In this document: positions 3,487-28,537 of the stretch, piece by piece
Position numbering within the stretch: position 1 is the first letter of the stretch
Layout of the letters: the number at the start of each line of letters is the position of its first letter
Origin: Halorubrum sp. CSM-61
GTDB taxonomy: Archaea > Halobacteriota > Halobacteria > Halobacteriales > Haloferacaceae
Direction: 5' to 3'
Assembly (NCBI RefSeq): GCF_003781945.1
Contig: NZ_RJJW01000001.1
Location: forward strand, 23,837 to 87,836
DNA length: 64,000 nucleotides
Made by a program: the position numbers and the translations under genes
The notes under the pieces: generated by a model
The model's database searches: none
The model's input: the letters and a program-made list of their open reading frames with translations, nothing else
What the model was told of the DNA's origin: nothing

Positions 3487-3518
3487 GCAGAACCCGTCTA
3501 CTGCGTAAGATTCCACCC

Positions 3519-8801: not shown

Positions 8802-9563
8802 ATGCTATCTGTAACGCAGAAAATCAACAGAATTAGAGAACTTTATCAAAAGGGTGGAGTCGGTGAAGTAAGTAGTGGGATACGGAGATTCATTGCGTAC
8901 CGCAAATATGTGGTTGCCACATGGTGGATCTTCAGAACGTCAGACGACAACACGGAGGCATACCGTCGATTGATGAAATACCGAATCGAGAACTTCGGTC
9001 CTGATGAATCAGTCGGTGGTTTTGAAGACGACATCGGGCAGCTGCAATTCGACTTCCTGAAGCGTCAAGGATTGTCCCCAAGTGATACTCTCCTCGATCT
9101 CGGGTGTGGTGTTCTTCGAGGAGGTCGATTCTACATCCCCTACCTCGAGCAAGGGAACTACATCGGGATGGACATCTCTCCAGATGCCATTGAAGAGGGG
9201 AAGAAGATCGTGGGCCATGAGATTGAGAAAAAGCAACCTCAATTCTACGTAAACGACGATCTCAAGTTCGCTGACGTTGCGGAAGAAGCGGACTACATCA
9301 TCGCCCAAAGCGTGTTTTCACACCTCCCAAAAGAAGATATCCGCGAATGCTTCACCCACCTACACCGCGTTCTCGATACTGATGGTGTGTTCTACGCCAC
9401 GTTCTCGGACGAAGAAGACGACCGAGACAAGAATTTCGCATATCCAAATGGCGAGCTCATCGATTTGGCCGAGGACTGTGGCCTGAACGCCACACTACTC
9501 ACACTCGAGGAATATCCTCATCCATACGGTCAACGGATGCTTGAGATCAGTCTTCAAAACTGA
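8802..9563 (+). CDS. Class I SAM-dependent methyltransferase
   Basis: A 253-aa protein. The SAM-binding motif I is LLDLGCGVLRGG (about residues 97-108), followed by IGMDISPDAIEEG as the acidic motif II loop and YIIAQSVFSHLP as motif III/IV, the pattern of small-molecule or sugar methyltransferases. The 90-residue N-terminal region is helical and unassigned. Base composition and codon use are less GC-rich than the element genes downstream, consistent with separate acquisition. The substrate cannot be deduced; cell-envelope glycan methylation is one possibility because a flippase occurs further along the window. Confidence 0.8.
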   Translation: MLSVTQKINRIRELYQKGGVGEVSSGIRRFIAYRKYVVATWWIFRTSDDNTEAYRRLMKYRIENFGPDESVGGFEDDIGQLQFDFLKRQGLSPSDTLLDLGCGVLRGGRFYIPYLEQGNYIGMDISPDAIEEGKKIVGHEIEKKQPQFYVNDDLKFADVAEEADYIIAQSVFSHLPKEDIRECFTHLHRVLDTDGVFYATFSDEEDDRDKNFAYPNGELIDLAEDCGLNATLLTLEEYPHPYGQRMLEISLQN

Positions 9564-9778: not shown

Positions 9779-10804
9779 ATGTTCAACACCAAAACTAAGA
9801 GCGTCTTGCTCGCACTTGTGATGCTGGTTGCTGCCGTCAGCGGGGCCATGGCAGCCGCATCCTACGACAACGAAACGACATCGACTTCGACCACCAGCGA
9901 TCTCGTGGGCGGTGAGACTGTCACCGACCTCGATAACTCCAGCGTCAACAAGACGCTTGAAGTACAGAGCGATAACGCAACCAGCGGCGACGACTTCACG
10001 CTGAAGTTCGCAGTCAACGACGCCGACTCCGACCAGGACGGCGAGGTCATCTACGAGACCGGCGATTCTTGGACGGCGACGAACGAGACTGAGGGCTACT
10101 ACAACTACACCTTCGACCACGCGACCGTCTTCAAGAACCTCGAACGAGACGCCGGTGAGAACGTCACGCTCGACGTTCGGACGGTCGTCAACGAGTCCGA
10201 GACGAGCGAGGAGGTCGCGGAGATCCAGATCTACGCGCAGAACGATCAGAACAGCGCAGTCGGCGTTGTCGGTGATGGCGACTCCGGACTGTCGCTGGCT
10301 GACTCCGGATCTGCCTACTCGTTCAGCCTCCCGTTCACAAACAGCAGTGACGAGGCTGGTGCCGCACAGGCAAGCGAGGACGTCGGCGTCAACGCGACGA
10401 ACACGACGACAGTTCGACTCGAGCTCTCGAACGCGTCTGCGAGTGACGCGGGGAGTGCGGCAATCTCCGAGCTCGAGACCGGAGCCTACGCGGCGAGCAG
10501 CTACGGTCAGTTCGATGGTCAGTTTGTCCCGGTCTTCGTCGACTCGGCTGACGCCGAGTGGCTCGACACGGAGACGGACACCTACGCGACGATCGACTCC
10601 GAAGGCGACACGATCACCTACCACAACGTCAACGAGGCGGTGGATGAGGACGGTACGGTGACCGCCAAGGCCACGGTCAACGACAACGCTGGCTTCATCC
10701 AGGCGTGGAACACGCTGGGTAACTACGACATCGGGAGTGGCGAGCGTGTGAGCCTCGCGATCGATTCGCTCGACACGAACGGCACTCCGTTCGACGACGA
10801 ATAA
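9779..10804 (+). CDS. Secreted glycoprotein-like major envelope candidate
   Basis: A 341-aa protein at the head of the membrane-protein operon. It has a Sec signal peptide (MFNTKTKSVLLALVMLVAAV, cleavage near SGAMAA). The mature chain is very acidic and carries many N-glycosylation sequons (NET, NSS, NKT, NAT, NTT, NAS), the features of exposed haloarchaeal surface or virion proteins. There is no C-terminal membrane anchor or S-layer sorting motif, so the protein must be free or bound by partners. No Shine-Dalgarno precedes the ATG, consistent with first-gene leaderless translation. The next gene starts 3 nt after its stop. I infer a secreted structural or adhesion component; no homologue recognised. 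Confidence 0.6.
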   Translation: MFNTKTKSVLLALVMLVAAVSGAMAAASYDNETTSTSTTSDLVGGETVTDLDNSSVNKTLEVQSDNATSGDDFTLKFAVNDADSDQDGEVIYETGDSWTATNETEGYYNYTFDHATVFKNLERDAGENVTLDVRTVVNESETSEEVAEIQIYAQNDQNSAVGVVGDGDSGLSLADSGSAYSFSLPFTNSSDEAGAAQASEDVGVNATNTTTVRLELSNASASDAGSAAISELETGAYAASSYGQFDGQFVPVFVDSADAEWLDTETDTYATIDSEGDTITYHNVNEAVDEDGTVTAKATVNDNAGFIQAWNTLGNYDIGSGERVSLAIDSLDTNGTPFDDE

Positions 10805-10807
10805 CCC

Positions 10808-11074
10808 ATGAGCCAGCGCAAACAAGCACTGGAGCGCGTGTGGACGTTTCTCTGGCAGACTGTCGTCGGTTGGGTCATTCTGCTGGTCACGATGTTCATC
10901 GCGACGATCTGGGCGATCATCGACATCATCTGGCAATTCGTCTCGGGTCGAAATGACCTGAGCGAGAATTCAACGGCGGCAGTCTGGGTCTCGAGGGTCC
11001 TCAGTTGGAACACCGACCAGACCATCTTCGTCTTCACCGGCGGCGGTGACGGCGGCTGGCGTCCACTTCCGTAG
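10808..11074 (+). CDS. Small membrane protein
   Basis: An 88-aa protein three bases behind the secreted glycoprotein gene. One long or two short transmembrane helices span about residues 15-45 (WQTVVGWVILLVTMFIATIW and onward). The C-terminus is polar and Gly-rich. It is probably a membrane anchor or partner for the preceding secreted protein. No family recognised. Confidence 0.55.
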   Translation: MSQRKQALERVWTFLWQTVVGWVILLVTMFIATIWAIIDIIWQFVSGRNDLSENSTAAVWVSRVLSWNTDQTIFVFTGGGDGGWRPLP

Positions 11075-11136
11075 CATCTGACTCAGCGAAGGCATAGCTC
11101 TCGATCAACCACCCGTCTTGGAGCGTACAACATGTG

Positions 11137-11163
11137 CGACCGGGTTCGACTCCCGGTACGGGC
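11137..11163 (+). tRNA. tRNA 3'-end-like segment (T arm plus acceptor-like strand), incomplete
   Basis: ccggg at 11140-11144, ttcgact at 11145-11151 and cccgg at 11152-11156 form a textbook T arm with the conserved TTCGA loop, followed by a 7-nt acceptor-like strand tacgggc. I could not fold a convincing anticodon arm, D arm or 5' acceptor strand upstream. I therefore call it a tRNA fragment, possibly an attachment-site remnant or a chance resemblance, not a functional tRNA. Confidence 0.3.
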
Positions 11164-11167
11164 TTGC

Positions 11168-11189
11168 CCGCCTGCGGTCGCGCAGGCGG
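11168..11189 (+). terminator. GC-rich hairpin after the tRNA-like segment
   Basis: A perfect 9-bp stem (11168-11176 with 11181-11189) with a 4-nt loop. It lacks a following T-tract, so it may be an RNA-processing or attenuation structure rather than a simple terminator. It separates the first two genes of the cluster from the main operon that starts at 11308. Confidence 0.4.
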
Positions 11190-11294
11190 CTTACCCCTAC
11201 CCGCACCCTTCGTGACTATTCCACTGTTCAATTCTGTGGGTGGTCAATCCGGGCTTCATACACAATGACACAACACAATCACACCGCAGATAAC

Positions 11295-11300
11295 GGAGGT
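11295..11300 (+). promoter_or_regulatory. Strong Shine-Dalgarno ggaggt
   Basis: A full match to the 16S anti-SD placed 7 nt before the ATG at 11308. It fixes that start and shows that the gene is translated from a leadered, polycistronic mRNA. A 13-codon reading frame (11265-11306) ends just before it. Confidence 0.6.
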
Positions 11301-11307
11301 AGCTGAG

Positions 11308-11973
11308 ATGCGACGAACGATCGCGCTGCTGCTCGTTGGCGTCGTCATCATCGCCGGCGTCGCAGCGCCGGCCGCCGCCCAGAGCGACTCAACGGATGAT
11401 GGGCTCGTGAGCGAGCTCTTCGGCTCGACCGGGCAGTCAATCGTCGATCAGGTACGAGACGACCCGATCGGCTTCGCACAGAACGTGGTTGCGGCCGCCA
11501 GCGGTGCGGCGAGCTCTGCTAACCCGTTCGGAGGCGCGGATCGAACACCCGCCGAGTGTGCGGCAGACATCCAGACAGAGATCAACGACAACAACGCAGC
11601 GTACGCGACGTACCTCAACGACCGCGTCGAGGCGAACGCGTCGCGTGACGTCGTCGCGATCCACTGCTCGAAGGAGACACGCGATGGCTTCAGCACTGAC
11701 GTCATCACGGAGACGGTCTACCTCACGGCGACCGTCAACAACAGCACCGACCCGTACACGTACGAGAACCTCTCTGTCGTCAACGAGACCTCGATGACAG
11801 TCGACGAGGAGGTGACGCTTACGGACTCTGCGACGACCGACGGCCCGGACGATCTCGTCGAGTTCCGGAAGGAGTACGTGTCGAAAAACGAAACGCCGCC
11901 GCGTAACTACTTAGCCCGCATCGGCGGGAAGTACGGGAACGACGTGAGCGGCACGTTCGACTTCCTCCAATGA
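11308..11973 (+). CDS. Secreted protein of the membrane cluster
   Basis: A 221-aa protein with a clear Sec signal peptide (MRRTIALLLVGVVIIAGVAA, cleavage near PAAAQS). The mature chain contains an alpha-helical Ala/Ser-rich stretch, two Cys residues (about 87 and 116) able to form a disulfide, and several N-glycosylation sequons in its C-terminal beta-rich half. No membrane anchor. Its stop overlaps the next start (ATGA). No family recognised. Position and features suggest an extracellular component of the apparatus encoded downstream. Confidence 0.6.
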   Translation: MRRTIALLLVGVVIIAGVAAPAAAQSDSTDDGLVSELFGSTGQSIVDQVRDDPIGFAQNVVAAASGAASSANPFGGADRTPAECAADIQTEINDNNAAYATYLNDRVEANASRDVVAIHCSKETRDGFSTDVITETVYLTATVNNSTDPYTYENLSVVNETSMTVDEEVTLTDSATTDGPDDLVEFRKEYVSKNETPPRNYLARIGGKYGNDVSGTFDFLQ

Positions 11974-12281
11974 GTAGTCAGAAAGGTTGGCACGGCGAGC
12001 CCGAGCGCCACCGAGAGGCACAGCTCCGAGCGATGGAGCGCCGGGATCAGACGTACAGGCGAAACGCGTCGAAGGCGATGAAGGACGCCGCGGGTGAACT
12101 GAAAGACACACCACCGAACCCCCTCCGGATCCTCTGGGAGCTCGGCGTCGCGAGTGGCTACCTGCTTCTGAGCCTCGCGGCCGTGGTTTGGTATCTACTC
12201 GTGGCGCTCGCCGGGATCGTGACGGTCTCGCTCAAATGGATCGGCGACAAGCTGGCCCAAGCATGGGGTCGCCTCCGATGA
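11970..12281 (+). CDS. Small membrane protein with cationic N-terminus
   Basis: A 103-aa protein overlapping its upstream neighbour by 4 nt. The first 50 residues are hydrophilic and Arg/Lys rich. One long hydrophobic segment (LGVASGYLLLSLAAVVWYLL and onward, about 57-85) probably forms a single or hairpin transmembrane region, and the C-terminus is again basic. Topology suggests a cytoplasmic N-terminus. It overlaps the next gene by 4 nt. Confidence 0.55.
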   Translation: MSSQKGWHGEPERHREAQLRAMERRDQTYRRNASKAMKDAAGELKDTPPNPLRILWELGVASGYLLLSLAAVVWYLLVALAGIVTVSLKWIGDKLAQAWGRLR

Positions 12282-12895
12282 CGGGTGAGCCGGTCGATCC
12301 CGCGAACGCGGGCCGCCAGATGCGGCGAGAACACGGCTGGGCGAAGACGCAGGTGCTTCTCCTGCGTGCGTACCTCGGGATGCTCGTCCAGGCCGACTCG
12401 TGGGGCCAGCGTGCGAAGCTCCTGATCTGGTCGGTCCTCTACGGGACACTCGCCGTAATCGCGATCGGCGTGTGGGCGGCCGTCGCGACGGGGCGACTCG
12501 CGTGGCGCGTGACGAGGTGGACCTGGAAGCAGATATCCGGGCTTGCGAGGAGCACGTACAGATATTTCGCGGAATTCCAGTTCGACGACGTCCTGCCACC
12601 TTCGATCCGAGACCTGATCAACTTCGTCTTCCAGATGATCCCGAGGGCGTTCGGGCTTCGGAGTACGAGCCGTCGTGAACAGATCAACGCGAACGCTGTC
12701 CTGATCGGTGTCACGTTTCTCACCGGGTTCTTGACGGGAGGACTCGCGTGGACGTTCATCGCGGTCTGGGCGGCATTGCTCCTGTTCGCGTGGTTTTTCC
12801 GAGGGACGCCGGCGGGAGAGTCGTACTGGCGACGGCTCCGCAGTCGGTTCCCGGTCGCGGACGACTATGACATCCCGTTCTGGAGGTCCGAATAA
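12278..12895 (+). CDS. Polytopic membrane protein
   Basis: A 205-aa protein. The ATG at 12278 overlaps the previous stop (ATGA) and is preferred over any earlier frame start. Hydrophobic segments near residues 50-75 (LLIWSVLYGTLAVIAIGVWA) and 145-172 (VLIGVTFLTGFLTGGLAWTF, then LLLFAWFF) give about three to four transmembrane helices. The loops are rich in Arg/Trp, and an amphipathic region (PSIRDLINFVFQMIPRAFG) lies between. The stop overlaps the next ATG (TAATG). No family recognised. Confidence 0.55.
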   Translation: MTGEPVDPANAGRQMRREHGWAKTQVLLLRAYLGMLVQADSWGQRAKLLIWSVLYGTLAVIAIGVWAAVATGRLAWRVTRWTWKQISGLARSTYRYFAEFQFDDVLPPSIRDLINFVFQMIPRAFGLRSTSRREQINANAVLIGVTFLTGFLTGGLAWTFIAVWAALLLFAWFFRGTPAGESYWRRLRSRFPVADDYDIPFWRSE

Positions 12896-13200
12896 TGCTC
12901 GACGGAATGAAACTCAGACGGAAAGCACAGCAAGGTGAACGCGTGGGCTGGCGGATCGCCGCCAGACTCGTCTTCGTGGCGCTGGTGGTCGGGCTCGCAC
13001 TGATCGCTGCTGCCTCGAACTCGTTTTTAATCGCGATCTTCGCGGCGGTCATGCTCGGGCTACTCATCCGGTCGATCCTCCCCAGTAAACGGATACAGAC
13101 GTGGGCACGAGGCTACGCGACAGGAGAGGCCGGCGATCGCTGGCGACGCCGCTGGCAGAACACAATCGACTGGCTCGTCGGAGTGATACCATGGAAATAG
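12895..13200 (+). CDS. Small two-helix membrane protein
   Basis: A 101-aa protein, coupled to its upstream neighbour through TAATG. Two adjacent transmembrane helices (RLVFVALVVGLALIAAAS and FLIAIFAAVMLGLLIRSI, about residues 24-60) are flanked by highly basic segments, so both termini are probably cytoplasmic. It overlaps the next gene by 10 nt. Function unknown. Confidence 0.55.
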   Translation: MLDGMKLRRKAQQGERVGWRIAARLVFVALVVGLALIAAASNSFLIAIFAAVMLGLLIRSILPSKRIQTWARGYATGEAGDRWRRRWQNTIDWLVGVIPWK

Positions 13201-14135
13201 TCCCCTCGGTTGCAGTCGTTGGGATCATCGCCGTGCTGCTGATCTCGGCGACGGCCTCGGGAGCTCTCGCGGCCTCGACGACCGACGCCAACACGGCATC
13301 CCAGTACAGCGTAGAAGACACCTGCCAGACCGAAATCGCACACGACGCGTTTCGAGCTCACAACCAGACGGTTTCCAAGCTCCAAAACGAATCGAAAGCA
13401 CAGTCGACCGTAGACAACACGCGCGTCACGGTCGCAGAAACATCTGGTTTCTACCGCGTCACTGGAGAGAACCCGAACGGGTACTGTGTGGGGATAACAG
13501 TTCAGGTGAGCGAAGACGCGATGCCGGCGGCGAAGATCCCCGGCAGCATCGAGTCGAACGACGGAAACCACTCTGCGACGTGGGATGCGATCCACGACTT
13601 CAACACCTCGGAGACGTACACCGAGGTGACGTTCGTCCTACCGCCAGATACGACGGCCACGTTCGCGCCCTCGGAGGCGCGCGTCCTCTCGCTGTCGTGG
13701 GCATCGGAACGAACAGAAAAGGCTCAAAGCGTCGCTGATCGACTCACAGAACGGTTCTTCGATAAAGACCTCGAGCAACGGCAGTACACGCTCAGCCCAG
13801 ACAACGAACAGGAGGTAACTGTGCCGCTCAAGAACCCGAACACAGACGAACAGGTCGACGAGTGGCAGGCGATGTATACCACCGATGACGAACAATCGTG
13901 GAATACACTCACTCGTGAAAGCTCTGAGAAGGTCTACATCACGGAGTCGGACGAACAGCAGGTCACGTTCCGGTTTAACGATCCGGAGGCCGAGGTACGC
14001 TTTACCGCAAACCCGAACTTCAGAGAGAAGACGGAACACGAGGTTCGTGAATACCTCTCTGGCATTCCGGACCTGTTCTCTGACGGGTCAGAGCAGAGCT
14101 TCGACGCCCCGATCGCAGGGGTGACGGCGACATGA
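13191..14135 (+). CDS. Secreted protein with signal anchor or peptide
   Basis: A 314-aa protein starting at the ATG at 13191 inside the end of the previous gene. Residues 1-27 are a Sec signal (SVAVVGIIAVLLISATASGA, cleavage near LAAST). The rest is extracellular in character: acidic, with sequons (NQT, NES, NHS, NTS) and two Cys (about 44 and 100). The middle is beta-rich and a helical ERTEKAQSVADRLTERFF segment lies before a second beta-rich half. The stop overlaps the next ATG (ATGA). No family recognised. One of three secreted proteins of the cluster. Confidence 0.55.
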   Translation: MEIVPSVAVVGIIAVLLISATASGALAASTTDANTASQYSVEDTCQTEIAHDAFRAHNQTVSKLQNESKAQSTVDNTRVTVAETSGFYRVTGENPNGYCVGITVQVSEDAMPAAKIPGSIESNDGNHSATWDAIHDFNTSETYTEVTFVLPPDTTATFAPSEARVLSLSWASERTEKAQSVADRLTERFFDKDLEQRQYTLSPDNEQEVTVPLKNPNTDEQVDEWQAMYTTDDEQSWNTLTRESSEKVYITESDEQQVTFRFNDPEAEVRFTANPNFREKTEHEVREYLSGIPDLFSDGSEQSFDAPIAGVTAT

Positions 14136-14383
14136 GGCCGCTTTACGTGATCGGGCTCGGCTTGATCGGGCTCGTGATGCTGCCGGCACTTCTCGCCGGC
14201 GGCGGCTTCATCGTCGCGATCCTCCTGGTCGTAGCAATCGCGGCGATCTTCTTCGGCGGTCCTGCCGCGTACGACCTCTACAAGACGAAGAACCTCGGAG
14301 CAAACGGCGGGATGCAGGCCCGTGACCTGATCGCAGGCCGCGGTGATGGAGATACCAGCGACTTCGAGAGGGAGGACAACTGA
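14132..14383 (+). CDS. Small membrane protein
   Basis: An 83-aa protein. The first 50 residues form two hydrophobic helices (IGLGLIGLVMLPALLAGGGF and VAILLVVAIAAIFFGGPAA), the C-terminus is hydrophilic. Overlaps at both ends with its neighbours (ATGA upstream; 1 nt with the next ATG). Function unknown. Confidence 0.5.
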   Translation: MRPLYVIGLGLIGLVMLPALLAGGGFIVAILLVVAIAAIFFGGPAAYDLYKTKNLGANGGMQARDLIAGRGDGDTSDFEREDN

Positions 14384-14661
14384 TGAACGTACTACTCGGT
14401 CTTGTTGGCTTCCTTCTCGCGCTCTTCGTCGGAGAGCTGCTCTATCGCTGGCGTGAAGAACCCGCCCGATTTTGGGGCAACCTTTCACAGGCGTTCTACG
14501 CGCTTGTCGGGATCGTCCTCTTCGGGCTGATCCTGATGGGCACAGACGGGCCGATGTTCTATGCGGTACTCATTCTCATCGTGAGTTACATGTGGTTGTT
14601 CCGTGTGCGCTTCGCGGACGCCAGATACGACATTCGAGCGATGCTCGGTGATGCAGATTGA
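14383..14661 (+). CDS. Small membrane protein
   Basis: A 92-aa protein with an N-terminal transmembrane helix (VLLGLVGFLLALFVGELLY) and two further hydrophobic segments (YALVGIVLFGLILMG, AVLILIVSYMWLF), giving about three helices and a basic, polar C-terminus. The start overlaps the previous stop by one base and the stop overlaps a short frame at 14661. Function unknown. Confidence 0.5.
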   Translation: MNVLLGLVGFLLALFVGELLYRWREEPARFWGNLSQAFYALVGIVLFGLILMGTDGPMFYAVLILIVSYMWLFRVRFADARYDIRAMLGDAD

Positions 14662-14801
14662 TGGGAACCCAGACTGCTGAGGCCGAACTCGGCCCCACGG
14701 CGGGCGATTCTCTTAACGAGCGACGTTATAACGATGCTACAACTCTGCTACAACGGCCACTCAATCCCCCGAGAGGAGGACAGACAGATGAGTGGATGTG
14801 A
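14661..14801 (+). CDS. Possible 46-aa coupled peptide
   Basis: The ATG overlaps the preceding stop as TGATG and the frame runs 46 codons, overlapping the start of the next gene by 14 nt. The peptide is hydrophilic, with no motif. The two-sided overlap is typical of real genes in this operon, but the size makes it uncertain. Confidence 0.35.
   Translation: MGTQTAEAELGPTAGDSLNERRYNDATTLLQRPLNPPRGGQTDEWM
14775..14779 (+). promoter_or_regulatory. Shine-Dalgarno ggagg deciding the start at 14788
   Basis: ggagg lies 8 nt before ATG 14788, so this ATG is preferred over an in-frame ATG at 14734 that has no such signal. Confidence 0.5.
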
Positions 14802-15096
14802 GTTTCTGACCCCGACATCGAACCGTCGGGGGCTCCAACTCTACTTTCCGATTAGCATGGCGACGGACACGACGCTCGATATCGAGGCCGGAAGTGAGGT
14901 CCTCACGCAGATAACGCCCTCTGGCGGGCTCCTCTTGACCCCGTCGGACGCAATCGAGGATCAGTTCCCGCAGCGCGTGCCGGCGCCGTCGTCGACGGAG
15001 TACGACGCCGCCGTCGACGCTGCTGATATCACGACCCACTCAGTCCCGTCTCGAGACGAGCTCATCGACGAGACGCAACCTCAAACGAACCCGTAG
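14788..15096 (+). CDS. Hypothetical soluble protein
   Basis: A 102-aa acidic, cytoplasmic-looking protein chosen from the ATG behind a good Shine-Dalgarno. Residues 28-55 (TLDIEAGSEVLTQITPSGG) show a short beta-hairpin pattern faintly like swapped-hairpin AbrB folds, too weak to assign. The C-terminal half is low-complexity and acidic. No transmembrane segment, unlike most neighbours. Function unknown. Confidence 0.45.
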   Translation: MSGCEFLTPTSNRRGLQLYFPISMATDTTLDIEAGSEVLTQITPSGGLLLTPSDAIEDQFPQRVPAPSSTEYDAAVDAADITTHSVPSRDELIDETQPQTNP

Positions 15097-15105
15097 ACTC
15101 AACCA

Positions 15106-15183
15106 ATGAAACAGACAGAATCCACGACGAGCGACAGCTACCGACGAACCCGACACCAGACTGAGACTGACGGTGGTGACTGA
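15106..15183 (+). CDS. Possible 25-aa peptide
   Basis: A short frame, Thr/Arg/Asp rich, that ends 2 nt before the GTG start of the next gene. It fills the only gap in this part of the operon and could serve translational coupling. No other evidence. Confidence 0.2.
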   Translation: MKQTESTTSDSYRRTRHQTETDGGD

Positions 15184-15185
15184 CA

Positions 15186-15833
15186 GTGTCAGCGCCTTCC
15201 CCGTCCTACGGAGATGACTCCGGGACCGACCTCAGCTCTCGGCGACAGCAACTCGACTACATCCGTGAGGAGCTACTGAAGTACCGACCAGACATCCACG
15301 ACGAAGAACTCCGGGAGGCGGTCTCGGAGTGGTTGATCGACGCATCAGACGTGCCTACTGCTACCGCGCGGGAGTACATCTCTTCGGAGCTTACCTCACT
15401 GCGCCGCGATAACGCGATGCGGATTAAACCCGGCGTCCGATCGCCCGAAGAGGCGTTCCCCGAGGAGTGCTCGGACTGCGAGTATTACGGTAGTGCGTGT
15501 CCGGTGTTGACGGACACGACGGAGGTAGATCGTCGGAACCGTATCATGGACCAGACTCAAGATCCGGACACGCTTCGCTACCTTCTCCGCGAGTACGCAG
15601 TCGACAATTCGTGCGATGTCCTCCTCGATCGGCTCGAGGACCTGAGCCAAGACTACGGCCCGCTACTCCGACGCGGGCAACTCCTGTTGATGCGCGTCGA
15701 GAACATCATCCTCCACGATGACGAGAGCGAGGCCGTGAAGCGAGCCATCGCGAACGAGGAAGCACTGGCTGGCGCCGTCTCGAGAGAGGAGCTTGACCGT
15801 CTCAAGAACGGTCACGACGGAGGGGATGACTGA
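15186..15833 (+). CDS. Cytoplasmic protein with Cys cluster
   Basis: A 215-aa protein with a GTG start. It is largely helical and acidic. A CSDCEYYGSACPV cluster (about residues 96-108) plus a later Cys (about 140) could bind zinc or an iron-sulfur cluster. No transmembrane segment. Its stop overlaps the next ATG (TGATG). Its place between two blocks of membrane proteins suggests a cytoplasmic adaptor. No family recognised. Confidence 0.5.
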   Translation: MSAPSPSYGDDSGTDLSSRRQQLDYIREELLKYRPDIHDEELREAVSEWLIDASDVPTATAREYISSELTSLRRDNAMRIKPGVRSPEEAFPEECSDCEYYGSACPVLTDTTEVDRRNRIMDQTQDPDTLRYLLREYAVDNSCDVLLDRLEDLSQDYGPLLRRGQLLLMRVENIILHDDESEAVKRAIANEEALAGAVSREELDRLKNGHDGGDD

Positions 15834-16873
15834 TGGCAAGTATCGAACGGATCGCCCTCGCTGCGGCGATCGCGCTACTGTTCCTCGTCGTCATCGCCTA
15901 CTTCGCACGGCGCTATCTCAGTAAGGGAGAAACGAACCAGGAGAGCTCACGCGAGCGCGCAGAGCACGAAGCGGAGCAACAGGACTACTCGCTCCCACTT
16001 CGCTCAAAGTTCGGCCAGATGCAGCGGCCAACGCAGTTCATGCTGCTGGGGGCCTGTCTCGTCGGGTTCATCGTGACGTACGAGGTCTACTCGTTCGCGA
16101 AGACTGGTTCGCCGACGCAGATATGGTACGCTCAGCAGACGCAACTCATTCTCGCGGCCATGCTCACGTCTGTGGGAGCGATCGCGTACGAGCGGAAACG
16201 CAACCGTGGCGAGGGAGAGGCCCACATCAAGTTCGAGGACGACAAGGGCGAACTCCAGACGAAGAAGACGATCTACTTCAACACCGACGACATCGCCGAG
16301 ACGGAAGACGGGACGGTTATCCACGAGTACAGCCGAAACCGAATCTTCGGTCTCTACCGTCGTGCGAAGGCGATCGTCGAGGACCGTGAGCTACGACAGG
16401 CGGCAGTGTTCAGGCCCCCGGACGATAAGATCGGTCACCTCGTTCCCGAACACGCGACGTGGCTCGACGACCAGACTGTCGAGTGGCGGACGAAAGGCGA
16501 CCGAGTCCATAAGGCGGAGGGAAAACCCTTCGACTACCGATACAAGCCGCCGTTCACGCTGTCGAGGCGGGAGTATCGGCAGGTTCAGAACGATAACGAG
16601 ATGCTCCGCGACGAGCGGCGAATGCTCGAAACGCGGATCGCCAACCTCCAAGATCAACTCAAAACGATCGAGGGCGACCTCGAGCGTGCTCGCGAGCAGA
16701 ACTTCGAGGAGGTTCTTGCGCAGATCAAAGACATGAGCGATATCTTAGGAAACAGCCACGAGACACAAGTCGTTGAACAGCACGAAGACGTCGGGCGTTC
16801 CAGCCGTAGCAACGGCGAGACGCCGGAAGCACTCGCAGACGGAAGCAACTCCGGACCTGGAGGGAATCGATGA
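15833..16873 (+). CDS. Membrane protein with cytoplasmic coiled coil
   Basis: A 346-aa protein. An N-terminal helix (IALAAAIALLFLVVIAYFA) is followed by two more (FMLLGACLVGFIVTYEVYSF and ILAAMLTSVGAIAY, about 68-123). The remaining 220 residues are hydrophilic: a beta-rich domain, then a long heptad-like coiled coil (about 255-310, ERRMLETRIANLQDQLKTIE and onward) and a disordered tail. The arrangement fits a membrane scaffold that recruits a cytoplasmic motor. It overlaps the next gene by 4 nt. No family recognised. Confidence 0.55.
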   Translation: MASIERIALAAAIALLFLVVIAYFARRYLSKGETNQESSRERAEHEAEQQDYSLPLRSKFGQMQRPTQFMLLGACLVGFIVTYEVYSFAKTGSPTQIWYAQQTQLILAAMLTSVGAIAYERKRNRGEGEAHIKFEDDKGELQTKKTIYFNTDDIAETEDGTVIHEYSRNRIFGLYRRAKAIVEDRELRQAAVFRPPDDKIGHLVPEHATWLDDQTVEWRTKGDRVHKAEGKPFDYRYKPPFTLSRREYRQVQNDNEMLRDERRMLETRIANLQDQLKTIEGDLERAREQNFEEVLAQIKDMSDILGNSHETQVVEQHEDVGRSSRSNGETPEALADGSNSGPGGNR

Positions 16874-18297
16874 CTGACACCCGTGCCCGCAGCGTCACGC
16901 TCGTCGTGCTCGGCCTGCTGGTGCTGGCGTCCGTCACGATGGCAGCGCCGGCCGCGGCCGCGAGCTCTTCACCGGCGCCGTCGGCGGGAGCGGTCGATAC
17001 AGTTGCCGTGGAGAGCATCGAGACTGATGTCGCGATGCAGACCAACGAGACGAACAATACGACGGCAACAACGAACCCTGACCGGCCGAGTTTGGCCGAG
17101 CGATCGCGAATCGCACCTGTCGATATCGGCGCCGAATACGCATCCATCACCGCCAAACAGGAGGCTGACGGCTACAACGTGGTCGGCGAGTTCGCGATCT
17201 TCTCGGTGACCGAGGAGGTCGAAGCAGCTCGCATCCAGCAGCCGGGTGCGGAAGTGCGCGTGCTTGATGGTGGACAGACCATCCAGGTTGACTTCGCTGA
17301 GGACGCAGCACCGCCGGACGGCGAGAGCCTGTTCACGATCAAGCTCTTCTACACCGACGGCTCTGAGCGGTCGGTCAGCCTCTACGCGTCGGACACGAAC
17401 CAGATCGTCGCCTCGGCGGAACTACAAGAGATGTCGACGTTCCTCCGAAGCGTGCGCAGCGACGCGGAAGCCAACGGCTACGAAACGACGACCGAGGGCA
17501 TTCGCGCCTACTACGAGGACACGAAGGAGCAGGCAGAGATCTTCTCGAACCTACTCGGTCCCGAGCTCGCTGCCTTCTTCGCGGTGATCGTGACGGCCTC
17601 GCAGTCGTCACTGTTCATCGCGTTCGTCGGCGTCGTGATAATCCTCACCGCCCGCTACATCTACACCACGCACGGTCACAAGATCCGTGCCAAGAAGAAC
17701 GCCGGGAACGCGGCCAAGGACAAGCGCGAGAAGTACCAGCGGTTCTACGAAGAGCAGCGCGAAGCGGCGGCCGAGGAGCCGCTGTCCTCGATCGACGAGA
17801 TCGGCGGTCGCGATATCCTGTGGAACGACCGCTTCGGCGTGTCGACGGTCAAGCAACTTGCCGATCTTGCGGCTGTCGGCGACCCACAGCGTGACGAGAG
17901 TGGGAACATCATCATGGCCGATCCGGAGACTGATGATGTTGACCCGCTTACGGACGCGAATGGTGACGTACTCACTGACAAGAACGGAGATCCGATCGGT
18001 CCGCCGAAGCTCCGACACCACGGTGTCAGTGACCTCGTCGACGCCGAGGCGCTCACGAGTACGTGGCTCGAGCCGATCCTTCGGAGCGGCTATCTGACTG
18101 AAGACGAGGCGCTGGTTCACCTCAAGTACGTACTGAAGCGGATGAGCGCACACTACGGGCAGCGAGAGTACGATGACGCACTCGGACAGATACAGCAGCT
18201 CATCTCGGACCGGAACAGCGGCACCGACATCACCTACGCTGAGTCCGATCGTGGGAGTGGATACAGCGGCGGCACGGCGACTGGAGGGGACGACTGA
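16870..18297 (+). CDS. Large bitopic membrane protein
   Basis: A 475-aa protein with a Sec signal (VTLVVLGLLVLASVTMAAPA), an extracellular beta-rich domain of about 200 residues with NET and NNT sequons, one or two strong transmembrane helices (about 235-265: FFAVIVTASQSSLFIAFVGV and onward) and a 210-residue charged cytoplasmic tail. The tail contains helix-hairpin-like text (FGVSTVKQLADLAAVG) and a calcium-loop-like DANGDVLTDKNGD stretch. It is well suited to pass a signal or force across the membrane. Overlaps on both sides (ATGA; TGATG). No family recognised. Confidence 0.6.
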   Translation: MTDTRARSVTLVVLGLLVLASVTMAAPAAAASSSPAPSAGAVDTVAVESIETDVAMQTNETNNTTATTNPDRPSLAERSRIAPVDIGAEYASITAKQEADGYNVVGEFAIFSVTEEVEAARIQQPGAEVRVLDGGQTIQVDFAEDAAPPDGESLFTIKLFYTDGSERSVSLYASDTNQIVASAELQEMSTFLRSVRSDAEANGYETTTEGIRAYYEDTKEQAEIFSNLLGPELAAFFAVIVTASQSSLFIAFVGVVIILTARYIYTTHGHKIRAKKNAGNAAKDKREKYQRFYEEQREAAAEEPLSSIDEIGGRDILWNDRFGVSTVKQLADLAAVGDPQRDESGNIIMADPETDDVDPLTDANGDVLTDKNGDPIGPPKLRHHGVSDLVDAEALTSTWLEPILRSGYLTEDEALVHLKYVLKRMSAHYGQREYDDALGQIQQLISDRNSGTDITYAESDRGSGYSGGTATGGDD

Positions 18298-20282
18298 TGG
18301 ATAAACCCAAAGAGTACCTCGGCAGCGCACGCGAGTCCACAGCGGATAGACTCGGCAGCGCACGCGACTCGACGGCGGACACACTCGATTCGACGGCCGC
18401 ATACCTCGAATCCGCAACCCCGAGCGTGACCTTACGAGAGTGGGTCGAACGCGCGATCATGCGTCTCGGTGGAGGTAGCTACCGACTCCGGCTCCGACTC
18501 GCGGTGCTCCTCACGGCCGTTCTCGGAATGGTGTTCTTGGCGGCGATCGGCGCCTTCTTCTCGTCGAGCATGGAACTGGCGGCGGACTCCGAGCCCATGC
18601 TGACGTTCGTCGCGAGGTTGATGACGAACTTCTGGGCGTGGGGTATGCTGTTCCTGCTCGGTGCGCTCTTCTACGCGAAGATGACCGGGCGGATGATGGC
18701 TCGAGAAGCGGCTTCAGAAACGCGCTTTTCGGTCCGTACGGTGCGGCGGCTCGCCGCCGAGGCGCGGACGACGAACGGGACGATCCCGATCGACGGGACG
18801 ACCGACCACTCGAAAGACCAACTCAAGGCGAAGCTGCTCCGAGCGTTCAGCGGCGAGCTCGATCTCGACGGAGACACTGTCGCTGAAGAGTCGGTGATCG
18901 ACACCGAGAGTCGAAGCGTCGAGACGCCGGGGCTACCAGAACCGGACTTCGGCGGTGCGCTGGTGGAGGCTGGTGATGGCGATGTAGAGGACACAACCGA
19001 TGAGGATGACGATACCGCCACTCCAAAGGAGGAGTCGAAACATATCGATCGGGACGCCCTGTACGAAGCGGTCGGTGTCGATCCGCTGAACGCAAAACTC
19101 TCTGGATGGGGAGAAGAGGACGTCAACGACATCACCGAGGCGATGCTCTTTGACGGAGCGTGTAAGGGGTTCGATGTCGCAGAGGCGCTCTCCGCGGCTG
19201 ATACAGACGCCGAGGTTCCAGCACCACCGGACCCGAAGGATGCGGTCGTTCACGGCCTCACGCGTGACGAGGACGGCAACCTTGTCGCGGATACGGAGTC
19301 GGAACCCACCGAGTTGGTGCCGTACGAGGGTGAGGATGCGACCGATACTGATGAGACCGACGTCGACGAGCCGACGACGGTAAGCATCGCGACCCGGCTG
19401 AAGCGTGGGATCCAGACGCTACGGATGGACCTCGCGACGGGACTCAACGTTTCCGAGCTCGCATATCGGTTCGGGATCCCGGCTTCTCTCACTGCCATGC
19501 TGATCGTCGTGCTGAACCAGACGCTCTGGTTCAGCGTGTGGGTCTACCCGATCATCATCGCGGTCTCGACCCTCGTCGGCGGAGTCTACTACACTGGCTA
19601 CAAATGGCGGCAGCATCGGCGTCTCGAATCCCTCCGGCACGAGACCGAGGCCGCAAGCTGGAACACGGTTCGCGTCCTCGCGAAGCGTGTCGAAACAGAG
19701 GAGATTACCGTCTACATGGCGTGGATGTCTGGGAAGCGATACGCAGACTACGACAAGGCCCGCCTCGCGAACAAACTCGCCGGCCGCTGGCACCAGTTCC
19801 TCAACTCGGGCGAGTGTTACCCCGCGATTCAGGAGAAGTTCCACCGCGACATCCGGACGTACGACCCCGCGCTGTACTACACCGAGTACGGTGACGAGGA
19901 AGACGGCCGCGCGGCGATCTACGACGATATCGTTCGCGAAGTCAAGCAAGCGCGTGATCCTGCGGGCATCGTACCGAAGGATCAACTCGCCGAGCGGGTG
20001 ATGAATCGCGACTTCGGACTCGGGCACGACCCCGATCTGATCGCCGAGTGCTACGAAGATCTCTACCCTGAAGTGCTCGCCGAGCACGATGTCGACCTCG
20101 AGGACACCGATGGCAACGAGAAGACGGTGACCATCGTTCACCTTCGCTCGCGACGGATCGAGCCTGAGCTCGCGAAGCTCCGAACGCAGTTCGCTGCCTC
20201 CGTCTCCGCCGACGACGAGGGGGGCTACATGCTCCCGGATGCCGAACAGCCCCACATTCCGTGGGTCGACACCGGTGCGTAG
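18297..20282 (+). CDS. Large polytopic membrane protein with N-terminal repeats
   Basis: A 661-aa protein. Residues 8-40 carry a degenerate repeat (LGSARESTADR, LGSARDSTADT, LDSTAAYLES). Four transmembrane segments occur in two pairs (about 63-88 and 103-123; about 400-418 and 422-445), each pair flanked by basic residues. A long acidic linker (about 190-370) separates the pairs. The C-terminal 215 residues are soluble and probably cytoplasmic. It directly precedes the P-loop ATPase gene (24-nt gap), the position of the inner-membrane partner of secretion or conjugation ATPases. No family recognised. Confidence 0.55.
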   Translation: MDKPKEYLGSARESTADRLGSARDSTADTLDSTAAYLESATPSVTLREWVERAIMRLGGGSYRLRLRLAVLLTAVLGMVFLAAIGAFFSSSMELAADSEPMLTFVARLMTNFWAWGMLFLLGALFYAKMTGRMMAREAASETRFSVRTVRRLAAEARTTNGTIPIDGTTDHSKDQLKAKLLRAFSGELDLDGDTVAEESVIDTESRSVETPGLPEPDFGGALVEAGDGDVEDTTDEDDDTATPKEESKHIDRDALYEAVGVDPLNAKLSGWGEEDVNDITEAMLFDGACKGFDVAEALSAADTDAEVPAPPDPKDAVVHGLTRDEDGNLVADTESEPTELVPYEGEDATDTDETDVDEPTTVSIATRLKRGIQTLRMDLATGLNVSELAYRFGIPASLTAMLIVVLNQTLWFSVWVYPIIIAVSTLVGGVYYTGYKWRQHRRLESLRHETEAASWNTVRVLAKRVETEEITVYMAWMSGKRYADYDKARLANKLAGRWHQFLNSGECYPAIQEKFHRDIRTYDPALYYTEYGDEEDGRAAIYDDIVREVKQARDPAGIVPKDQLAERVMNRDFGLGHDPDLIAECYEDLYPEVLAEHDVDLEDTDGNEKTVTIVHLRSRRIEPELAKLRTQFAASVSADDEGGYMLPDAEQPHIPWVDTGA

Positions 20283-20306
20283 GCAGCACTACCACAATTA
20301 TCACAA

Positions 20307-22736
20307 ATGCAAGTATCCAGCGACAGCGTCGACATTCAGGCGCGCGATGACGGGAGTATCGACGATACAGTTGAGGGGCTCCTTCGAGAGAAGCGACGGA
20401 AACGACAGCAGAAAGAGGACCTCAACGTCGAGGCAGAAGTCCGAGATCACCTGACGATCGCGAAGGAGGTCCTCGCCGAAGACAGCGAAGCGGCAAGCGA
20501 GGTCCTCGGAGAACTTCACGAACTCCTTTGGGAGGACGACGATGTCGAGGTCGTGATCGACCGTCGGGAGTCACTCCTCGAAGACAACACGGAGCTATCG
20601 GCTCGGGAGGCGACGAGCATCCGCTCGCAGTTCCGGCGTCACACCCGGCTTCGAGAGACCGGGAACCGCTCTCCGGACCCCGAGACCGAGTACAAGGTAC
20701 TCTTGAACGTCGCGAAGGCGCTCAACTACTACTCGTCGGTCACGGAGATGACGCCGTACGCGCCGGTGACGATGGAGACGATCGACGAGCCGGGCTCGGA
20801 GAAGACGGAGAACCCGACGCCGGTCGGTCGGCGCCGGCTGAAGGCGGCGACGTCGCTTTCGACCGAGGACGCGGCCGTCGAGATCCCACACCAGTCGTGC
20901 GACCACATCCTGTGCGTCGCGCTCCCGCGCTCGGGCAAGGACTCGACGCTCGCGAGCATCGGGATGAACCTCTGGAACGAGCACGGCTACAAATACATCT
21001 CCATCTTCGACGACGGTCGGATGGAGACGCCGATGATCTCGATCCCGAACGACGACCCCGGCATCCGGTCGAACCTCGACCGGCTCGACCAAGACCCGAA
21101 GGCGTTCGACTCGGAGGTGTTCGTCCCGGCGATGCAGGGCGTCCCCGACACGCTCCCGAACAACTTTCGGGAGTTCACGATCGGCGTCGATAGCCTTACG
21201 CCCCACCTCATCTTGCGCCTCTCCGGCGTCAACACGAGTGACGAGACTGCGGAAGACCGCATCGAGCAGGCGCTCCAAGAGACGCTCGAGAACTCGGGCG
21301 GCATCCCTGAGCTCGTCGGACGGATCCAAGAGAAGGCCGGCAACCAGAACGCGACGATTGAGTGGACCGAGCAGGCCCAGAACGGCTCCCAAGAGACCTA
21401 CACCGCTCACTACGAAATGGAGCGGTCGAAGGCGCTCAACAAGGCGGCTGCCCGACTCTCGAAACTCGCAGGGGACGGTCTCATCGCGAGCGCTGCCGCC
21501 GAGACGAACATCTCGATGCGGGATGTCGTCGCCAACCAGGAGCAAGCCGCTGTCCTCTGCTGTAACTTTATCGCGGACGGTCAGGAGTCGATCAAGTACA
21601 CGATCATCGATCTGTGGCTCCGGCTCGTCTACAAGGTCAGGGACGAGTACCCGCGGCTCCCTCGGGTTGCGCTTGAGATTCGCGAGCTCAAGGACATCGC
21701 ACCCTCAAAGCTCGGCGACGCCCGGTACAAAGAGCAGGTCAAGTCACTCCGGCAGACGCTCTTCACGCTCTCGACTCGGGGCGGGTCGCGGCGTATCCTA
21801 CTGCTCGGGTCGACACAGAAGCTCAACGACGTTTACAAGCCAGTCCGGTCGAACATGGCGACGAAGATCCTTCTCCGACTCGGCGAGGAGGGGATCGAGA
21901 CGCTCGATAACTCCTACCACTTCGGCCACGAGCAGAAGCGGCAACTCTCGGAGTTCAGCGTCGGCTGGGGGATGCTGATCGCAGGCGGCGAGAAAAAGTG
22001 GCCGATCGAGTGGCGCGGAGCTCCCTGCGGCCTCGGCCTCGGAGACCAGCACTGGCTCGACCGGTTCGGAACGGCCCGCGGCGCCCGCGTCCGGCAGAGC
22101 GAGTCCGACCGGTGGACCGATCGGCACGCCGGCGAGGACTGGTGGGTACATGTCCCGGACGCGAGTGTTCATCCGGGCGATACCTCGCCTGAGATCGGCG
22201 ACACCTACAGCGAGTGGTATCTCCTCGAGTCAGACTTCCCCGACGAGATGGAACCAGACGACGTCGACGCAGAGGCCGTTGAGGAGGCGCTTGCGGAGCG
22301 CCGGGAGTATAACACTCCATCGGACATCGCACTCTCCGAAACGCTCTCCTCGGACAAGCGGCGCCGGTTGTCGATGCGCTCGGCCGATGGAGACGGCAGC
22401 GAAAACGTTGAGGCGGTACTCGACCGCCACGGACTGCCGCCGGAGCTCCGTCGCTGGGTCATCACGAAGGCGGGAGAGATACGTAAGGCGCCCACACGTC
22501 AGAAGCTCGCTGAGGCCGTCCATGTGATCGGTAGCTACGACGACCTTCACACGTACTCCGACATCGGCGAACACCTCTCGTACAGTGCGTCGACGTTTGC
22601 CAACTACATCTCGGAGGAAGACACGCCGCTCTCACCGTGCGTCACCAAAGACGGGAAGGCGTACGTCCTCACTGAGGTCGGTAAAGCCGCTCTCGACGCC
22701 GACTGGGACGTGATTATTGAGGCGATACAAGACTGA
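20307..22736 (+). CDS. VirD4/TraG-like P-loop ATPase (degenerate Walker A)
   Basis: An 809-aa soluble ATPase. The P-loop is ALPRSGKDST (Lys about 211), closest in form to the xPTRSGKGxx loop of VirD4/TraG coupling proteins, with Ala for the first Gly and Asp after Lys. A candidate Walker B is VALEIRELKDIAPSK (about 454-468, Glu457/Glu460). A 180-residue helical region precedes the motor. The C-terminal 120 residues look like a winged-helix module (LAEAVHVIGSYDDLHTYSDI and onward). It has no transmembrane segment, so it would rely on the membrane proteins upstream. The stop overlaps the MCM-like start (TGATG). Role inferred: DNA-pumping motor for transfer or packaging. A HerA/FtsK-type assignment is also possible. 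Confidence 0.55.
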   Translation: MQVSSDSVDIQARDDGSIDDTVEGLLREKRRKRQQKEDLNVEAEVRDHLTIAKEVLAEDSEAASEVLGELHELLWEDDDVEVVIDRRESLLEDNTELSAREATSIRSQFRRHTRLRETGNRSPDPETEYKVLLNVAKALNYYSSVTEMTPYAPVTMETIDEPGSEKTENPTPVGRRRLKAATSLSTEDAAVEIPHQSCDHILCVALPRSGKDSTLASIGMNLWNEHGYKYISIFDDGRMETPMISIPNDDPGIRSNLDRLDQDPKAFDSEVFVPAMQGVPDTLPNNFREFTIGVDSLTPHLILRLSGVNTSDETAEDRIEQALQETLENSGGIPELVGRIQEKAGNQNATIEWTEQAQNGSQETYTAHYEMERSKALNKAAARLSKLAGDGLIASAAAETNISMRDVVANQEQAAVLCCNFIADGQESIKYTIIDLWLRLVYKVRDEYPRLPRVALEIRELKDIAPSKLGDARYKEQVKSLRQTLFTLSTRGGSRRILLLGSTQKLNDVYKPVRSNMATKILLRLGEEGIETLDNSYHFGHEQKRQLSEFSVGWGMLIAGGEKKWPIEWRGAPCGLGLGDQHWLDRFGTARGARVRQSESDRWTDRHAGEDWWVHVPDASVHPGDTSPEIGDTYSEWYLLESDFPDEMEPDDVDAEAVEEALAERREYNTPSDIALSETLSSDKRRRLSMRSADGDGSENVEAVLDRHGLPPELRRWVITKAGEIRKAPTRQKLAEAVHVIGSYDDLHTYSDIGEHLSYSASTFANYISEEDTPLSPCVTKDGKAYVLTEVGKAALDADWDVIIEAIQD

Positions 22737-23686
22737 TGGTCAACGAAGAACAAATGAAATCGGCCTTCAACGCGCTGTATACTGGCGCGTACGAGGGCGA
22801 TTCTCAAGAAGCAGAACAGTCAGACGGGAACGTATCGATCCGGATCCAATGGTCCGATCTCGAGGCCGTCGACGAGGAGGTCGCGCAGTACACGCTGAAA
22901 AAACCCTCTGCCGTCAAAGAGTGCGCTGAGGATGTCCTCTCCAATTCGATCCAGAAAATCGAGAGCAACCTCCATGTCCGGTTCCACGATCTCCCGGACT
23001 CGCGCTCGCTTCGCGTCAGCGACTTGCGCGCATCGCACCTGGGCGAGCTCGTCTCGATCAGCGGGAAGGTCGTCGACGCCGAGAAGGTACAGCCGTTTCT
23101 GAAGAAGGGTGCGTTCAATTGCCAGCGGTGCGGAACACTGACGTATCTCCCGCAGACATACGGCGATATCAGGGAACCGGTTGAGTGTCCGGGGTGCGAA
23201 ACCTCTGGACCGTTCGGGGTCATCCAACGCCACTCTGACATCATCGACTTCAAGTGCGTCATCCTGAAGACGACGAACACGAATCTGGAAGACCCGCCAG
23301 TACTCCCGATCTACCTCCTCCATGATCTTGTCGAGACCGTCGGTGAGGGCGACGAAGTGAGTGTTGCCGGCTCGTACAACATCCACCCGATGAGCCGACA
23401 GAAAGAGACTGAATTGAATACGTACGTCGAAGCGGTCGACATCGAGGTCGAGGAGTACGCCGAAGTCGATTCGGTCAACGCAGAGGACCTCACTGCGTAC
23501 ATCTACGAGGGCGTCAACAAGATGATGGAGACCGAAACCTCGTTCGGGGCCTCCCGTGACGACGTCGTCGAGTGGATAGGTGAGAAGTACGGCGTCCGTG
23601 AAACGGAGATTGAGAACCGAATCGACGAGCTCGTCGATGAAGATGGCGAGGATCTCAGCCAGCAGGCCGGCCAACTCATCAAGTGA
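22736..23686 (+). CDS. MCM N-terminal-like protein lacking the AAA+ motor
   Basis: A 316-aa protein with the hallmarks of the MCM replicative-helicase N-terminus: the RVSDLRASHLGELVSISGKV OB-fold segment (about 95-114), KVQPFLKKGAFNCQRCGTL and ECPGCETSGPF giving a C2-C2 zinc site (Cys about 129, 132, 151, 154), then the second half of the OB barrel. It ends with a small helical module (FGASRDDVVEWIGEKYGV) like the MCM C-terminal winged helix. The AAA+ ATPase region, about 350 residues in real MCM, is absent and the frame shows no break. It is coupled to the ATPase gene. Inferred role: loader, clamp or DNA-binding ring for that ATPase, or a modulator of host MCM. Confidence 0.75.
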   Translation: MVNEEQMKSAFNALYTGAYEGDSQEAEQSDGNVSIRIQWSDLEAVDEEVAQYTLKKPSAVKECAEDVLSNSIQKIESNLHVRFHDLPDSRSLRVSDLRASHLGELVSISGKVVDAEKVQPFLKKGAFNCQRCGTLTYLPQTYGDIREPVECPGCETSGPFGVIQRHSDIIDFKCVILKTTNTNLEDPPVLPIYLLHDLVETVGEGDEVSVAGSYNIHPMSRQKETELNTYVEAVDIEVEEYAEVDSVNAEDLTAYIYEGVNKMMETETSFGASRDDVVEWIGEKYGVRETEIENRIDELVDEDGEDLSQQAGQLIK

Positions 23687-24062
23687 GTTTTTCCAGCCTG
23701 TTCTCATTGGTTCCTTTCCCAATAGAATCGGCACTGTGAGCCCGACACAGGCGAACCTATGATACTCTGAGGAACTGTAACCGCACGTTCCGATTATCCC
23801 TGGCCCGCGCGCTACGTACCGCGTACACGTTAGAGACTCCACGACAAAGAAGAAATGGGTCAGGTGGACCGACACCGTGGCGTCCGCAGCCTGCGCCCAT
23901 CTGTCCTTCACAGTACAACACAAAAGGTCGCCCACACCGGCGATACCGGTACCGATACCGTTACCGACATCGATATCGGAACCGGTACCCAAATCGATAC
24001 CGAAACCGATACCGGGCGAAATAGCGGGTTAAATCGTCTCTAACTTCTATTACTGTCTCAGA
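23687..24062. other. Convergent intergenic region
   Basis: A 376-nt gap between the plus-strand MCM-like gene and the minus-strand Toprim gene. Apart from the hexamer array annotated separately, I see no gene; weak frames here are low-complexity products of the repeat. Confidence 0.6.
23941..24012 (+). repeat. Hexanucleotide tandem repeat, consensus CGRTAC
   Basis: Twelve consecutive 6-bp units in perfect phase: cgatac, cggtac, cgatac, cgttac, cgacat, cgatat, cggaac, cggtac, ccaaat, cgatac, cgaaac, cgatac. Most keep cg at the start and ac at the end. The array contains several ggtacc and atcgat palindromes. It lies between convergent genes. It may be an iteron, a protein-binding array, a transfer-origin-like site or a slipped-strand repeat. 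Confidence 0.75.
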
Positions 24063-27359: not shown

Positions 27360-27662
27360 TCAGAGCCGAAGGGATTCTGTTGACCGAAGAGCCTGTTTCG
27401 GAGGACAAGCGCCGGGAGCATACATCGACGGACAGAAAAGCGCCGCGACGCGCCGACTTTGCGCGAGCAGCTCGTCGACGGTCGTCTCCCGGCCCATCTC
27501 CCGCTCGGCGGCGGCGATCGATTTGAGCCGCTCTGCGACGCCGGGAAAATCGGAGCCGTCGCTTACCAGCTCCGAGAATCGCACGTCATCGAGTGTGTCA
27601 CGAGGATTATTCATTGGTGTTGTTACGTCGTCTCGAATACCGGTAAAATATGGCAGTGACAA
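27360..27662 (-). pseudogene. Remnant resembling the start of a second Toprim-type gene
   Basis: A 100-aa frame. Its RETTVDELLAQSRR segment matches in layout the EPEDLLIQSRR near the start of the Toprim protein at 24063-25532. The following residues (VAALFCPSMYAPG) lose the resemblance, as if frameshifted or cut. It lies upstream of, and on the same strand as, that gene with the flippase between. I infer a truncated paralogue or a duplicate left by rearrangement. It could also be an unrelated small gene. Confidence 0.35.
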
Positions 27663-28513: not shown

Positions 28514-28537
28514 TAGGTGGACTTGAAAGGCATGGCT

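Follow-up and report, generated by a model that had tools for sequence, protein, structure and literature searches.

The window, i.e. the whole stretch of 64,000 nt analysed here, carries a run of + strand genes between positions 9779 and 23686, as confirmed by ORF calls. Overlaps of 1–10 nt are found at most junctions: 4 nt at 11973/11970, 1 nt at 12895, 10 nt at 13191–13200 (taking the ATG at 13191 as the start of ORF17), 4 nt at 14132–14135 and 1 nt at 14383, and in the downstream part 1 nt at 15833, 4 nt at 16870–16873, and 1 nt each at 18297 and 22736. Small intergenic gaps are present at 14661/14734, 15096/15186 and 20282/20307. The genes starting at 9779, 11308, 13191 and 16870 encode signal-peptide-like N-termini, and a coiled-coil-like region is found in the product of the gene at 15833. 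An earlier note on this DNA had described a one-strand operon with overlaps of this size, encoding secreted and small membrane proteins, a coiled coil and two soluble proteins at its end, and the ORF calls and these features agree with that description. The same note placed the start of the operon at 9779, which has to be revised as the system begins earlier, with the 3′ part of ORF6.

The individual genes were assigned by comparison with pR1SE, a plasmid of the haloarchaeon Halorubrum lacusprofundi that is passed from cell to cell in membrane vesicles containing its own proteins (PMC10818511), and its relatives. For this comparison, 27 further copies of the element were taken from plasmids and genomes (28 rows including the window; pR1SE and pR1SE2 are near-identical), and their ORFs were searched with iterated profiles whose seeds came from the window. 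All genes in this paragraph lie on the + strand. Upstream of 9779, the conserved C-terminal part of ORF6 (4993–6167, with a 362-aa ORF at 5079–6167) was located by tblastn with ORF6 of relatives and by an own-genome search. It is followed by ORF7 (6164–7825), a secreted subtilisin-like protease (Peptidase_S8, 3.4e-30; pR1SE, 30.8%, 4e-33), and by ORF8 (7804–8661), a secreted protein with a Tat signal (profile and blastp matches; pR1SE, 1.8e-6) for which a NEP1-like fold has been published (PMC10818511). A SAM-dependent methyltransferase gene (8802–9563; Methyltransf_12, 4.8e-14) occurs in one of the 28 copies, i.e. in this element alone, and is regarded as cargo. The next gene (9779–10804) encodes an ORF9-like secreted acidic protein with a signal peptide and 13 sequons, detected by iterated profile in 26 of 28 rows and by plain blastp in only four copies. 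B88 (10808–11074), a small membrane protein, has a 61% identical homologue in Natronosalvus amylolyticus. The secreted protein C221 (11308–11973; blastp, 21 copies) is followed by the small membrane protein D103 (11970–12281; profile, 8 copies), the membrane protein E235 (12188–12895; blastp, 13 copies), the true start of which is probably slightly downstream, and the small two-TM protein F101 (12895–13200; blastp, 11 copies). For ORF9, C221 and E235 the assignment depends more on iterated profiles and position and is less certain. ORF17 (13191–14135) is a secreted protein found by blastp in 25 copies (pR1SE, 33.9%, 3e-41). The small membrane proteins ORF18 (14132–14383) and ORF19 (14383–14661) and the small soluble protein ORF20 (14734–15096; same position throughout, start uncertain) were each recovered by profile in 26 of 28 rows. 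The remaining core proteins were found by blastp in all 27 copies: the cytoplasmic ORF21 (15186–15833), the bitopic ORF22 with a cytoplasmic coiled coil (15833–16873; coiled-coil matches), ORF23 with a signal peptide and a TM segment (16870–18297), the large polytopic membrane protein ORF24 (18297–20282; supported by alignment) and the HerA-like ATPase ORF25 (20307–22736; model and fold search), a proposed dsDNA pump. The run ends with MCM-short (22736–23686; MCM_OB, 1.1e-18; alignment and tree), which consists of an MCM OB/zinc region and a C-terminal helical domain and contains no AAA+ domain. Searches of single proteins against Pfam and PHROGs gave almost no matches; nearly all of the proteins have pR1SE homologues, and the earlier note was wrong in seeing hints of a known family in the last two proteins only.

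Downstream, a stand-alone Topo VI-A/Spo11-like protein with a TOPRIM region is encoded on the − strand (24063–25532), followed by a polysaccharide flippase-like cargo gene on the + strand (25728–27197; Polysacc_synt_3, 2.4e-21). Both the flippase and the methyltransferase gene, located in the element or next to it, resemble cargo or genes for surface modification. At 27426–27662 (− strand) lies a remnant of a pR1SE-type Topo VI-A-like gene, reduced to its first ~80 codons and 74–83% identical to the copies of Hrr. saccharovorum and pR1SE. A putative origin, consisting of inverted repeats beside cdc6 (28045–28424; inverted-repeat search), precedes the + strand genes for a Cdc6/Orc1 replication initiator (28517–29797; Cdc6_lid, 9.8e-21; pR1SE, 44.9%), a GNAT acetyltransferase of the pR1SE backbone (29893–30591; 73–82% identical, with a DNA match) and a tyrosine-recombinase-like integrase (34776–36077; Phage_int_SAM_5, 0.0047; 33% to an annotated integrase of Halorussus vallis). 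The proposal that the element has its own origin and integrase is consistent with these genes. A comparison of the element's two flanks revealed no att repeat, and a tRNA was likewise not detected.

The apparatus is real and conserved; at the same time it is already known as the plasmid-vesicle (PV) system of pR1SE and its relatives. Forty such relatives, named apHPVs, have been published (PMC10818511), and the suggestion of an undescribed machine is not upheld: a match to an apparatus already characterised is what the earlier note itself had named as its refutation. An apHPV is recognized by at least five of ORF6, 8, 17, 21, 23 and 24 on one contig, proteins which are among the PV proteins of pR1SE (PMC10818511). 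Judged with our own profiles, not the published HMMs, all six are present here, with ORF6 in two pieces. Clusters 1 and 2 have the conserved order, apart from the displaced 5′ half of ORF6, and all defining core genes follow the same order as in pR1SE, pR1SE2 and the apHPVs. The ATPase gene at 20307–22736 was detected by tblastn in 15 haloarchaeal plasmids including pR1SE (KX687704; 37.7% over 98% of the length) and pR1SE2 (KX906370; 41.8%). The earlier note was right to take pR1SE as its lead, as homology and synteny confirm, and mistaken in seeing no direct identity to it; its layout of exported subunits, membrane scaffold and motor is borne out. Gene-neighbourhood conservation, which it had proposed as a check, is evident from the same order in the 27 other copies. 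Specifically, ORF21–25 were found by iterated profiles in 28 of 28 rows and ORF17–20 in 26 of 28, in identical order; plain blastp without iteration recovered ORF17 and ORF21–25 in 25 to 27 of these 27, the E-values against pR1SE lying between 1e-16 and 0. This recurring order is far beyond chance. The family occurs in 27 of 391 Halobacteria genomes and, within the searched data, was seen in Halobacteria only; a phylum-wide draw of 393 genomes contained four carriers, all of the window's taxonomic order. A scan of IMG/VR with the ORF25 profile gave no relative, and neither phage records nor a single-sequence scan of genome contigs gave a match.

Homology, synteny, folds and the missing AAA+ domain are established by this analysis. 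In our judgement, the cluster is probably the region that serves transfer of a pR1SE-like plasmid (apHPV) integrated in a Halorubrum genome, providing a vesicle coat and a HerA-type pump that would load plasmid dsDNA into vesicles. Vesicle transfer has been demonstrated for pR1SE alone (PMC10818511), by analogy with which vesicle formation and transfer would be expected of this element, itself known from its genes. To the known system this analysis adds the present copy with its probable exchange of the transfer module and its divided ORF6, as well as the MCM without a motor and the adjoining Topo VI-A-like protein; the strain may already be among the 40 published.

Module exchange is suggested by the uneven similarity to pR1SE. 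Backbone of the pR1SE type is found on both sides of the transfer operon, at the DNA or protein level; matches to pR1SE2 and pR1SE (79% and 75% in DNA over parts) were obtained downstream for Cdc6/Orc1 with its inverted repeats, for the GNAT gene and for small genes, and Cdc6, GNAT and flanking backbone genes are 73–91% identical. In contrast, the transfer proteins are only 25–39% identical to those of pR1SE. Among plasmids, no near DNA match to the operon was found; the element nearest to it is that of Haloferax sulfurifontis. Most simply, these sequence comparisons would be explained by a pR1SE-type plasmid in which a divergent transfer module has taken the place of the original one. The presence of such an operon on a Halorubrum replicon of the pR1SE type suggests movement of the transfer module between backbones.

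Unlike in pR1SE, ORF6 is split by an insertion sequence of 1597 bp (3410–5006, + strand; transposase at 3519–4883, DUF772/DDE_Tnp_1), recognized from an identical inverted copy and from comparison of the flanks. This second copy is located at 452216–453813 of the same 593,834-bp contig (C11) as the window. The N-terminal part of ORF6 adjoins it outside the window (C11:453736–456366, − strand), ~425 kb from the C-terminal part, which begins directly after the window copy. When the genome was searched with ORF6 of a relative, query residues 344–764 matched the distant piece and 760–1136 the window piece. Because the halves meet at one point of the relative's ORF6 (residues 760–764) beside identical inverted IS copies, the outer flanks of which have the triplet GAA in common, we conclude that the IS entered ORF6 and that the halves were parted either by a 425-kb inversion between the IS copies or by an assembly misjoin. 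To the left of the IS, a stretch of coding sequence (window 3048–3408) is apparently cut at the IS end, and its continuation may lie near C11:452215. Beyond the N-terminal part of ORF6 follow, in pR1SE order, homologues of ORF5 (87%) and of the RepH-like ORF1 and a 77% identical gene. The ORF1 homologue is a 992-aa ORF at C11:461069–464047, 24% identical to pR1SE ORF1. According to PMC10818511, no other apHPV has an ORF1 homologue; contrary to this, the present element appears to encode one. A second ORF6 homologue of 1021 aa lies at C11:485165–488230, where no ORF7 or ORF8 was detected beside it; it possibly belongs to a partial second element.

With its ORF6 disrupted, the copy in this strain may be inactive. 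We give only slightly less than an even chance to the reading that the cluster is a dead remnant, in which the IS and the rearrangement in ORF6 have put an end to vesicle formation in this strain. The position of the two halves, 425 kb apart beside the inverted IS copies, speaks for it. All other core frames are open, however, which argues for a recent event or an assembly misjoin, and the existence of the second ORF6 homologue likewise counts against a remnant.

MCM-short, the last protein of the run, combines an MCM OB domain (1e-18) and four invariant cysteines with a conserved C-terminal domain. The label “MCM-like” therefore holds for the OB/zinc regions, which are common to archaeal MCM helicases, and fails for the AAA+ motor: PF00493 was detected in none of seven short proteins and only in the 704-aa Halorussus MCM. 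A role as helicase is ruled out by the missing motor, and an identity of the C-terminal domain with the winged helix of host MCM is unsupported by sequence. In a phylogeny built from N-terminal regions, the short forms fall together in 98% of bootstrap replicates and are separated from the full MCMs, those of hosts as well as others (support 97/76, with some long branches). A recent capture from the host was rejected as MCM-short does not nest among host MCMs. The gene lies directly 3′ of ORF25 in 15 of 28 rows, with an overlap or a short gap wherever it is present. It is absent from pR1SE, and MCM-short is therefore not essential. MCM has been counted as a replication gene of 20 elements, with a host origin suggested (PMC10818511). 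For the MCM gene adjacent to ORF25 both points are doubtful, because MCM-short lacks the motor and is not nested among host MCMs; the published reading of this gene as a host-derived replication helicase is thus corrected.

The Topo VI-A/Spo11-like protein was identified by its fold. The model is of middling confidence (pLDDT 66) and matches the A subunit of Topo VI (1d3y, Z 11.2 over 228 residues; Foldseek 6.7e-5), then JetD and Spo11, while unrelated TOPRIM-only rows reach ~9. In the alignment, invariant RxxHY (Y75), E210, D262 and D264 (E...DxDxxG) would fit the motif pattern of a cleavage tyrosine and a TOPRIM domain, as in Topo VI subunit A and Spo11. In contrast to Topo VI subunit A, the family has no match among Pfam profiles; PDB profile searches gave nothing credible, and hhalign against host Topo VI-A gave a weak match. 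Of the 28 rows, 19 contain a member of the family, pR1SE among them, and it occurs in 22 of 292 genomes, where most full-length copies lie near an ORF25 gene, with one genome (G154) as exception. A group of Topo VI-A proteins borne by mobile genetic elements has been named Mini-A (PMC8185306). The apHPV paper makes no mention of a topoisomerase, and both the stand-alone Topo VI-A/Spo11-like protein and the motor-less MCM-short are undescribed in this survey (PMC10818511).

The roles of the two proteins in packaging are proposals, and both could also serve replication. That they act in plasmid replication or segregation, and that modular assembly merely happened to place them next to the transfer operon, is a serious alternative to which we assign somewhat lower odds than evens. 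MCM OB domains bind DNA in replication, the published assignment of MCM to replication points the same way, and in several elements the Topo VI-A-like gene lies on the opposite strand. Against this, MCM-short lacks a motor and consistently follows ORF25, and Halorussus vallis has a separate full MCM besides the short form.

The ATPase itself, ORF25, gave an AlphaFold model of middling confidence (pLDDT 73) with HerA as best match (Foldseek 7e-11; Z 22.3 over 369 residues), followed by VirB4 (Z 19.0), TcpA (17.1), the STIV2 packaging ATPase B204 (15.9) and TrwB (15.8). The ATPase fold common to these proteins extends over ORF25 residues ~157–587, and the assignment to the HerA/FtsK superfamily is reflected in 94 PDB chains matched at E below 0.001. 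VirB4, TrwB, HerA and STIV2 had already been listed for ORF25 (PMC10818511). ORF25 differs from HerA in its helical N-terminal region, in an apparently unusual P-loop, PRxGKD, with an R-E pair at the Walker B position (read from the alignment), and in the lack of a detectable sequence family match: a PDB profile search returned just a weak HerA match (E 0.15), and Pfam gave no family match, with no coupling-protein match in any of 23 family members at E up to 1. Sequence analysis revealed no TM or hydrophobic segment, and thus no N-terminal membrane anchor of the coupling-protein type, which some coupling proteins lack as well. The earlier description as “VirD4/TraG-like” holds loosely, for the shared fold; that ORF25 is a VirD4 is not supported, as the closest fold is HerA and both the TM segment and a Pfam coupling-protein match are missing. 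That ORF25 would work like a dsDNA pump is well supported; DNA pumping itself is inferred.

Conjugation, with ORF25 as VirD4/TraG coupling protein and the membrane proteins as a mating channel for contact-dependent transfer, is very unlikely: TrwB, VirB4 and TcpA do have the same fold and the P-loop resembles that of coupling proteins, but HerA fits better, pR1SE homologues transfer without cell contact (PMC10818511), transfer in cell-free, DNase-treated supernatant has been reported for pR1SE, and no relaxase was found among the scanned proteins, as the earlier note had remarked, with all 15 plasmid records holding ORF25 typed as non-mobilizable by a scheme tuned to bacteria.

For the favoured reading of a plasmid-vesicle system, the following mechanism is the most likely. 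The exported proteins for coat, proteolysis and attachment, which coat and release the vesicle, would come from cluster 1 (ORF6–9) and ORF17, and a platform in the membrane would be built from the remaining membrane proteins up to ORF24. A ring motor of the HerA type in the cytoplasm would be provided by ORF25, pumping double-stranded plasmid DNA through the platform into the budding vesicle, with MCM-short as a putative DNA-binding collar or adaptor of the motor, not a helicase. The Topo VI-A/Spo11-like neighbour might cut or untangle the packaged DNA. Taken at its full extent, i.e. that apHPVs encode a capsid-less dsDNA packaging machine of HerA-type pump, motor-less MCM collar and Spo11/Topo VI-A-like cutting enzyme, the proposal is speculative and rather unlikely to hold in every part. 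To our knowledge, such a combination is known from neither viruses nor conjugation. Elements like pR1SE, spreading in vesicles that carry their own proteins, blur the distinction between plasmid and virus, and two neglected DNA-handling proteins beside the motor make the entry of DNA into plasmid vesicles directly addressable.

Finally, the motor gene is found twice in two relatives. In Natronorubrum daqingense (19686–23910), the full ORF25 is succeeded by another copy, shortened to 555 aa, and then by MCM-short, a tandem motor duplication. In the Halorussus vallis plasmid, ORF25 matches with identical scores at two places of a single 130-kb contig (C5:17433–19787 and 119912–122266), attributable to a core duplication or an assembly repeat.
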